This document shows positions 4,114-57,632 of a DNA stretch of 64,000 bases, piece by piece (position 1 is the first letter of the stretch; each line of letters opens with the position of its first letter). The notes below the pieces were generated by a model. It was not told the origin of the DNA. It did no database searches and saw nothing but the letters and a program-made list of their open reading frames with translations. Made by a program: the position numbers and the translations under genes. Location of the stretch: NCBI RefSeq assembly GCF_016623615.1, contig NZ_JAEHFX010000001.1, positions 310,001 through 374,000 of the forward strand, given 5' to 3'. This stretch comes from Adhaeribacter terrigena (GTDB taxonomy: Bacteria > Bacteroidota > Bacteroidia > Cytophagales > Hymenobacteraceae).

Positions 4114-4160
4114 CATAGATTGCTTCTGTTCTTAATTATTAATTTTTAATTATTAATTAA

Positions 4161-4450
4161 ACTTTCTCCCTCAAGCCGGGCGGCTTCGTTTAGCTACGCT
4201 GAATCTCCGATTTCTGCGTTCGCGGCTGCAACCCTTCCTGCCCTTGCGGGCTGCCTCCTGCGTCAGCACCGGAAGTCTTGGAGGCCGCTCTCACAGAAAC
4301 TGGTGTCAGTTCCCTTCGTAGCTCGCTTCTTTTTAATTTACTCTCTCAAATAACGTGATTTTCAGGAAACGCTGCGTTGGCGGGATGCGTAAAATCAGGT
4401 GTTAAAAATCATGTTCAGCATTTCAATCCCTAAAATCGTGTTCAGACCAT
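4161..4450 (-). repeat. Composite structured repeat, copy C
   Basis: Minus-strand copy of the noncoding element also present at 44869-45165 and 50697-51020. Read on the minus strand it carries the GTCTGAACACGATTTT block, the CGCCAACGCAGCG block, the multi-stem core (outer stem CACAGAAAC at 4292-4300 with TTTCTGCG at 4211-4218; tetraloop hairpin GCCC-GCAA-GGGC at 4240-4251) and the AGCC-GCCC-GGCT hairpin at 4174-4185. It differs from copy A by about 22 inserted bases between the outer stem and the last hairpin. No coding frame is apparent. Confidence 0.8.
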
Positions 4451-44868: not shown

Positions 44869-45165
44869 ATGGCAATGAATGTCTGAATTTGGATTTATAG
44901 GATTCAGGGATTTAAGGATTTCTTGTCTGAACACGATTTCCAGGATTATCAATTTCACGCCAATCGCCAGCGCAGCGTACCTTGAAAATCACGTTCTGAA
45001 GAAAGCTAAACTAAAAAGAAGTTAGCTACAAAGGGAAACAGATACCAGTTTCTGTGAGAGCGGCCTCCAAGACTTCCGGTGCCACAGGCAGCCCGCAAGG
45101 GCAGGAAGGGTTGCAGCCGCGAACGCAGAAACGAAGCCACCCGGCTGGAGTGAGAAAGCTACCTA
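44869..45165 (+). repeat. Composite structured repeat, copy A
   Basis: In order: GTCTGAATTTGGATTTATAG and GTCTGAACACGATTTCCAG tracts, CGCCAGCGCAGCG (44960-44972), then a fold. P1 pairs 45048-45056 with 45124-45132; P2 is GCGGC (45060-45064) with GCCGC (45116-45120); P3 is CAA-GA-CTTCC (45068-45077) with GGAAG-GG-TTG (45104-45113). It closes two small hairpins, TGCC-ACA-GGCA (45080-45090) and GCCC-GCAA-GGGC (45091-45102). A last hairpin AGCC-ACCC-GGCT lies at 45135-45146. No reading frame. Confidence 0.82.
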
Positions 45166-45207
45166 TGAAAGTAAAAAGTTATTAGTTAAGATCGAAAGCA
45201 AGCTATA

Positions 45208-45237
45208 AAAACGGTATCGTTTCAGGCTCAAAAACTC
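45208..45237 (-). repeat. 30-bp dispersed element
   Basis: Reverse copy between copy A's folded core and its GATGACG block. Confidence 0.8.
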
Positions 45238-45261
45238 ATTAACAAACTTTCTTATTAACTT

Positions 45262-50696: not shown

Positions 50697-51020
50697 CAGC
50701 AAAAGCAGACGGCTGTGAATTTGTCTGAATTGGGATTTATAGGATTCATGGATTTTTGTCTGAACACGATTTTTAAGATTAAAGGATAGGCAGGATTTTC
50801 AAAAACAAGATTTCACGCTTATCGCCAGCGCAGCGTATCCTGAAGATCACGTTATCTGAGAAACTAAAATAAAGAAAGCTTACTACGGAGGAAACCGACA
50901 CCAGTTTCTGCGTGCGCGGCCTCCTATTCGTACGGTGCCTTTAGGCAGGCCGCAAGGCCAGTTTGAATAGAAGACGCGAACGCAGAAACGAAGCCACCCG
51001 GCTCGAGGGAGAAAGCTCTT
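50697..51020 (+). repeat. Composite structured repeat, copy B
   Basis: Same order of blocks as copy A. P1 is a perfect 10 bp (GTTTCTGCGT 50904-50913 with ACGCAGAAAC 50980-50989); P2 CGCG (50915-50918) with CGCG (50975-50978); P3 CTATTCG (50924-50930) with TGAATAG (50964-50970). Hairpins TGCC-TTTA-GGCA (50936-50947) and GGCC-GCAA-GGCC (50948-50959) and the final AGCC-ACCC-GGCT (50992-51003) are kept. P3 shares almost no sequence with copy A but pairs equally well. Confidence 0.82.
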
Positions 51021-57580: not shown

Positions 57581-57632
57581 CAGAATTTTTCCGTAGCGCA
57601 GGGTTTAAACCCTGCGCTACGGAAAAATTCTG
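57581..57632. repeat. 52-bp perfect palindrome
   Basis: Each 26-base half is the exact reverse complement of the other; centre GGGTTTAAACCC. It lies between convergent genes but after a separate terminator, so it is not needed for termination there. Confidence 0.9.

Follow-up and report, generated by a model that had tools for sequence, protein, structure and literature searches.

A folded, high-copy repeat of the Hymenobacteraceae that is probably a non-autonomous mobile element

What is a noncoding repeat whose stems change in sequence while their pairing is kept: an RNA, the end of a transposon or a mobile unit in its own right? The question is raised by a 64,000-nt stretch of the Adhaeribacter terrigena genome (GCF_016623615.1, contig NZ_JAEHFX010000001.1, positions 310,001–374,000, forward strand), here called the window, in which a first-pass annotation marked 44869–45165 as one of three copies of a candidate structured RNA. 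The sequence, the helices and the three copies (A, B and C) are as it described them, down to the letters of P3 and P5 in copies A and B; the folded part of that interval is only ~45038–45163, and 44869–45037 is mostly 5′ flank, made in part of another dispersed repeat. The folded unit, which we call the arm, consists of a three-segment hairpin and two capping hairpins followed by a GGCC-type 3′ hairpin. In copy A (type A; 45038–45163, plus strand; 133.9 bits with covariance model R1, among whose own sequences it is) these elements are, all on the plus strand, the outer stem P1 (GTTTCTG 45048–45054 / CAGAAAC 45126–45132), P2 (45060–45064 / 45116–45120), P3 (CAA-GA-CTTCC 45068–45077 / GGAAG-GG-TTG 45104–45113), P4 (TGCC-ACA-GGCA, 45080–45090; stem 45080–45083/45087–45090), P5 with its GCAA loop (GCCC-GCAA-GGGC, 45091–45102; stem 45091–45094/45099–45102) and the 3′ hairpin AGCC-ACCC-GGCT (45135–45146), which together with its tail spans 45135–45152. 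Copy B (50894–51020, plus strand; 125.9 bits, also in R1) is of type B, with the same fold in other stem sequence (stems CTATTCG / TGAATAG, hairpin GGCC-GCAA-GGCC). Copy C (4157–4310, minus strand; type A), which lies outside R1, scores 94.2 bits and carries a 22-base insertion ahead of the 3′ hairpin.

Several other repeats surround the arm. A 5′ region that travels with it in the genus (CGCCAGCGCAGCG ... AAAAAGAAG ... AGCTAC) occupies 44955–45045 on the plus strand of the window, as delimited in an alignment of 32 copies, and a dispersed repeat lying outside the folded unit (GTCTGAATT..GGATTTATAGGATTC; D11, D12) precedes it at 44880–44948 on the same strand. On the 3′ side a short plus-strand repeat of the AAAACGGTATC..AAAAACTC type (45203–45239; families D1–D4) belongs to a type found 3′ of the aligned arms and also alone at many places in the window. 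Repeats of the types TCTGAATCAGGATTTTCAGGATT and CGTCATCTCGACG..AGGAGAGATCT are found upstream of arms (window 44880–44948 and 50722–50781; locus L032, 1760–2090), where the intergenic DNA is a mosaic built from several dispersed repeat types. A 30–45-bp repeat of type AAAACGGTAGGCTTTTAAGCTTAAAAACTC (families D1–D4) occurs at 23 sites between 32658 and 62081 of the window, on both strands, alone or after arms, and looks like a separate REP-like family of the source genus. The window also holds a perfect inverted repeat of 26 + 26 bp with no spacer at 57581–57632 (I9).

The proposal that the multi-stem fold is kept by compensatory change is borne out in larger alignments. Among 30 copies of the genus (alignment A1; 19 rows from the source genome and 11 from its relative G001), 98.2% of 1110 pair cells are standard, against at most 46.2% for slid structures, and 11 of 37 pairs have changed on both sides, a result reached by none of 500 shuffles. 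When arms of a further relative, G028, are added (alignment A4; 75 rows, including one truncated and one antisense row, L063 and L138:1165–1262), 24 of 32 pairs have changed on both sides (0 of 500 shuffles as high), and the share of cells that pair is 92.7%, with at most 46.7% for slid structures; RNAalifold predicts 27 pairs on these rows, 20 of them with double changes. Alignments A3–A5 were fitted to R1, a model made with 13 copies from two genera, and their P2 counts are low because P2 of R1 is misaligned for one genus group (g3). Since A4 was fitted to the model, we also parsed the arms independently by sequence anchors alone: 244 aligned matches gave 241 unique sequences, of which 202 were parsed and 39 were not. 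P1 pairs 1–8 are standard in 190–202 of these 202 arms, with several pair types at pairs 5–8, and between genera the middle stems can differ wholly in sequence (e.g., L034, with a perfect 30-bp stem).

The parsed arms also contain a 3-bp loop–tail pseudoknot that the first-pass annotation had not noted: the loop of the 3′ hairpin pairs through its last three bases with the three tail bases after GA. It pairs in 184 of the 197 parsed arms that yielded a tail (five gave none), whereas 2000 shuffles averaged 64.8 and never exceeded 86; the shuffles ignore relatedness and hence yield no probability. Five CCT/GGG rows scored as paired look mis-parsed onto an inserted segment, and minus these the count is 179 of 192. 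The pairing is realized as CCC/GGG (72), GCC/GGC (45), CGC/GCG (33), CTC/GAG (25) and a few others, and four different three-base solutions across subtypes would be hard to explain otherwise than by pseudoknot pairing. Copy A itself has a broken pseudoknot (ACCC against tail GTG), and seven arms with a CAGC loop fail the three-base rule. Some arms hold an inserted GGGGAGGAG hairpin (L039, 1392–1560) or a GAGGGCCCCTACCCC-type stretch (among L147, L175 and L189); arms therefore serve as targets of other small repeats.

How widespread is the arm? A covariance-model search of the genome, as the first-pass annotation had proposed, returned 78 R1 matches at E ≤ 0.01 in the source genome (150 of 1443 candidates scored), copy A among them; 66 of the 78 were listed, every one at E ≤ 2.5e-22. 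G028 has at least 150 matches (150 of 150 scored candidates), 84 of them listed. A DNA search of the source genome with copy A gave 57 matching pieces (40 of 295 candidates scored), and DNA search alone detects little beyond the genus, with matches in 5 of 59 relatives, the source genome counted; a DNA match in G045 was rejected as a 30-nt piece with no arm. With R1, arms were found in 63 of 200 genomes of a family sample, in four of six genera (groups g1, g2, g3 and g6), in 24 of 390 genomes of an order sample, of which only G251 (best E 1e-8) lies beyond the family, and in three of 395 genomes of a phylum sample, namely the source genome and two with weak matches that are probably false. Judged from these sequence searches, the folded repeat appears almost absent beyond the family. 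An exact-pattern scan of named genomes yielded 83 stretches, and the 80 listed are all titled Pontibacter, Rufibacter or Sabulibacter; Sabulibacter and Pontibacter belong to the Hymenobacteraceae, and we infer that g2 is mainly Pontibacter and g6 Rufibacter. Viral contigs, plasmids and phages gave no arm match (exact pattern; blastn with one query each). The earlier statement that no described family matches also stands at Rfam's gathering level: Rfam 15 has no match in the 64-kb window, and the 451 bp around copy A, searched up to E 10, give four matches, all at chance level (best E 0.64) and well short of their thresholds. Literature searches found no paper describing the folded arm family.

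The first-pass interpretation is hence partly supported: the conserved fold of the candidate structured RNA is real, and its carrier is no stand-alone RNA gene but a high-copy dispersed repeat. We think it probable, with appreciable room for doubt, that copy A belongs to a family of dispersed, non-autonomous mobile elements in the Hymenobacteraceae, a family with the folded arm of ~125–220 nt as its unit. The arms are scattered for the most part between genes. Most likely the arms are a REPIN-like or MITE-borne repeat, resembling a giant REPIN, because in G028 they form divergent pairs within elements whose inverted ends are shared with arm-less elements. Among the 84 arms listed there, all 25 neighbours closer than 3 kb are divergent, with spacers of 184–291 bp in 23 and of 419 and 479 bp in two, and by eye most pairs combine two subtypes. 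Farther out, each pair is followed by a second small hairpin (by eye) and, beyond it, by the ends TWATACC..GGTATWA, a motif with 30 exact copies in G028 (reversed control, 0) that also bounds arm-less elements of ~127, 225 and 365 bp. The arm-carrying elements measure ~700–900 bp with short inverted ends, and no ORF of ≥90 aa occurs in the three with ends and ORFs listed (L255, L256 and L265). Miniature elements of ~127–365 bp were observed at L248–L263 of this genome, several with an inner hairpin like AACCCGGCAGGTTTTGAAAACCTGCCGGGTT. A G028 paralogue with 92% identity over 593 bp indicates recent spread, and one element (L125) interrupts, at its loop, an inverted repeat with the look of a terminator (by eye). 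Terminal inverted repeats, the lack of an ORF and many copies, as in MITEs, thus occur together in G028 only. Among the outcomes that the first-pass annotation set against its own reading, an Rfam match was not found, and a transposon end is partly true, because the G028 arms sit as divergent pairs inside miniature elements with inverted ends.

Outside G028 the arrangement is looser. Eleven distinct pairs closer than 1 kb are all divergent (spacers 35–535 bp), including one in the same-genus G001 (L032, spacer 535); the longer-range exceptions are a tandem neighbour at 1.7 kb (L199) and a convergent one at 2.8 kb (L173). Near most of the fetched arms of Pontibacter, Rufibacter and Sabulibacter, R1 detects no second arm, though it may miss divergent ones, and in genera other than that of G028 the arms are without TWATACC..GGTATWA ends. 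None of the 66 listed source-genome copies has a divergent neighbour within 3 kb, the only neighbours at that range being convergent; these arms are solo and flanked by other dispersed repeats. Empty sites sought against relatives gave no clean site and no readable junction, and by-eye inspection of G028 elements gave no consistent target-site duplication. The gene order at copies A and B and at one G028 copy differs from that of relatives, and the G001 loci corresponding to copies A and B have no arm. Mobility of the arms is supported, but not proved, by their scatter, their paired architecture and the young G028 copy.

How might such a unit move and persist? We infer that a protein supplied in trans recognizes the arm in single-stranded form (an ssDNA hairpin or a transcript); this would explain why the arm keeps its shape while its letters drift. 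The carrier elements would be moved by a transposase acting on their ends. No transposase linked to the arms was found in the flanks of 35 loci, in 18 G028 end-motif stretches examined by ORF lists or at 14 Y1_Tnp loci; at the 35 loci, all in other genomes, no ORF family recurs in more than three flanks, frames across the arm aside, with one family in three (L088, L091 and L095) and several in two. The solo copies of the source genome would be old units, with selection or homogenization between copies still preserving their fold. In 32 of them mean pairwise identity is 0.947 in the arm, 0.793 in the 5′ flank and 0.699 in the AT-rich 3′ flank; either selection in place or homogenization between copies would account for the high arm identity, and the latter could proceed by recombination.

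Which strand folds, and as which molecule? In the 1616 cells of P1 pairs 1–8, G.T occurs 159 times and A.C 12 times; hence one strand folds, namely the strand given. Strand-specific G.T wobble fits RNA and single-stranded DNA alike. The first-pass annotation had stressed a GNRA tetraloop, and GCAA is indeed present in copies A, B and C; family-wide, the apical loops are GNNA or GNA rather than GNRA. With a mechanical hairpin finder (≥4 Watson–Crick pairs), which takes in chance hairpins, 123 of 187 apical tetraloops are GNNA (59 GNRA and 64 GNYA) and 98 of 152 triloops are GNA, closed mostly by C-G; in the form GCC-GA-x-GNA-y-GA-GGC, x-y is complementary in 40 of 40 cases (G..C 24, C..G 16). 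In RNA GNRA loops the third base is limited to purines. We therefore rejected the apical loops as evidence for RNA, as the third base of GNNA is free. GNA and GNNA loops are described as those of extraordinarily stable DNA mini-hairpins (PMC4686876), and by this analogy the loop rules (GNA, GNNA, free third base) would suit DNA mini-hairpins at least as well as RNA GNRA loops. For 43 of 64 source-genome arms, the strand that folds is the one opposed to the local intergenic GC skew. Across several skew measures applied to 64 of the 66 listed arms, r ranges from −0.26 to −0.53, with codon bias confounding the strongest value, and a regression including gene bias (64 arms) gives p 0.038; this is a weak hint of a link to replication. 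A more specific proposal, which we put forward tentatively and consider doubtful, would make the repeat a novel class of mobile unit: REPIN-like with giant arms, recognized as a folded single DNA strand under the loop rules of DNA mini-hairpins, in which the closing pair can swap freely, with the loop–tail pairing as guide for a cleaving enzyme and a mover other than a RAYT.

Alternatively, the arm may work as RNA, as a structured 3′-untranslated or read-through RNA acting in the protection or processing of the upstream gene's mRNA. Such a role is reported for ERIC (PMC2267715) and, with RNase III, for Correia/NEMIS elements (PMC2649163), and the single folding strand speaks for it. Gene context leans the same way: of 202 classified arms, 76 lie between convergent genes and only 13 between divergent genes, and with co-directional neighbours 69 are sense and 44 antisense (56 vs 32 outside g3), counts that rest on heuristic gene calls, leave 42 arms unclassifiable, include both arms of pairs and are slightly affected by loci that are the same place twice (L113 = L165). 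Copies A and B are, however, antisense to both neighbouring genes, the loops break the GNRA rule, and a Bacteroidota-type promoter was looked for by eye and none was seen; we regard an RNA role as unlikely, if well short of negligible.

The resemblance to REPINs calls for asking whether the arm is simply the REP or REPIN of a RAYT. Like REPINs and BIMEs as described, the arms occur as inverted doublets and singlets, mix subtypes within a doublet, are intergenic and of high copy number and have no inner gene (PMC3116915; PMC3733652; PMC6006769), and three of four genomes searched for Y1_Tnp (G001, G008 and G028) have 14 matches in all, several of ~180 aa. However, the fourth, the source genome, has no Y1_Tnp match and 78 arm matches, and none of the 14 loci has an arm within ~1.5 kb (search E up to 10); a separate check of the loci found only matches of 13–22 nt (best E 0.003). 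Ten of these loci were tried and five genes parsed: four have YIHQNP, and four, by eye, lie between short hairpins whose sequence is not that of the arm. The ~180-aa Y1 transposase genes at L050, L052, L054 and L055 (G001 and G028), with YIHQNP and flanking short hairpins such as TTCGGACACAGATGTCCGAA, are an observation in their own right; the hairpins are probably their own atypical REPs. Bacteroidetes-type RAYT genes are described as flanked by atypical structures that are found elsewhere in the genome (PMC6006769); at the examined loci the arms are not those structures. Furthermore, the arm differs from REPs and REPINs in build: its foot reads CCAG / CGA[AG]GCC rather than GT[AG]G, its 125–220 nt exceed the 21–65 nt given for REPs (PMC6006769), and it has three stacked helices, two apical hairpins and a pseudoknot. 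One REP subclass, 2.6, is also listed without GT[AG]G (PMC6006769). With Y1_Tnp searched in four genomes, the RAYT reading is largely refuted and very improbable, and as neither the defining GT[AG]G foot nor an adjacent RAYT was found, we do not file the arm family under REPs.

It is just as hard to credit that a reverse transcriptase or a TnpB/IscB-like nuclease uses the arm as a guide-type or template RNA, a role that the compact multi-stem fold and the pseudoknot beside the 3′ hairpin would suit. In a search that covered two protein families, TnpB (PF07282) is present in none of ten genomes, eight of them from arm-bearing genera, and reverse transcriptase (PF00078, RVT_1) in five of the ten and in none of the arm-bearing G001, G106 and G016, so reverse transcriptase does not track the arms. 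That the arm is the inert remains of a palindromic repeat with a merely inherited shape fits the 78–88% identity to copy A of other source-genome copies over a longer unit (DNA search) and the broken pairs of some copies, A included, but is most improbable given that stems differ between genera with pairing kept and that conservation of the arm far exceeds that of its flanks in the single set for which it was measured.

We return to the non-autonomous mobile repeat and its place among known systems. ERIC, YPAL and NEMIS/Correia elements are likewise dispersed, ~70–170 nt long and capable of stable hairpins, with ERIC common to several genera (PMC2267715). Unlike ERIC, for which one long stem-loop is predicted (PMC2267715), the arm has several helices and a covarying pseudoknot, and its fold is kept as stem sequences change between genera, compensatory change having been measured for the arms only. 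The G028 elements, standing beside shorter arm-less ones, recall MITEs; they differ from MITEs in containing two self-folding arms, and no target-site duplication was seen by eye and no autonomous partner found in the ORF lists of the end-motif stretches. With the ends of IS200/IS605 elements, where a short pairing beside a hairpin joins guide and cleavage site (PMC6006769), the arms share strand-specific folding; they differ in being mutually inverted, in pairing loop to 3′ tail, in the absence of TnpB from the ten genomes searched and in the lack of a Y1 transposase in the source genome.

Bacterial intergenic repeats with a shared fold are, in the account of PMC2267715, mostly predicted single or double stem-loops. 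The arm has a complex fold that includes a covarying pseudoknot; several genera retain it, and the two genomes counted contain 78 and at least 150 copies, with no visible enzyme. The molecule that is folded (RNA or single-stranded DNA), its recognizer and the persistence of such repeats in compact genomes are now testable, and the arm family would be a new entry for Rfam and for the annotation of mobile elements in the Hymenobacteraceae.
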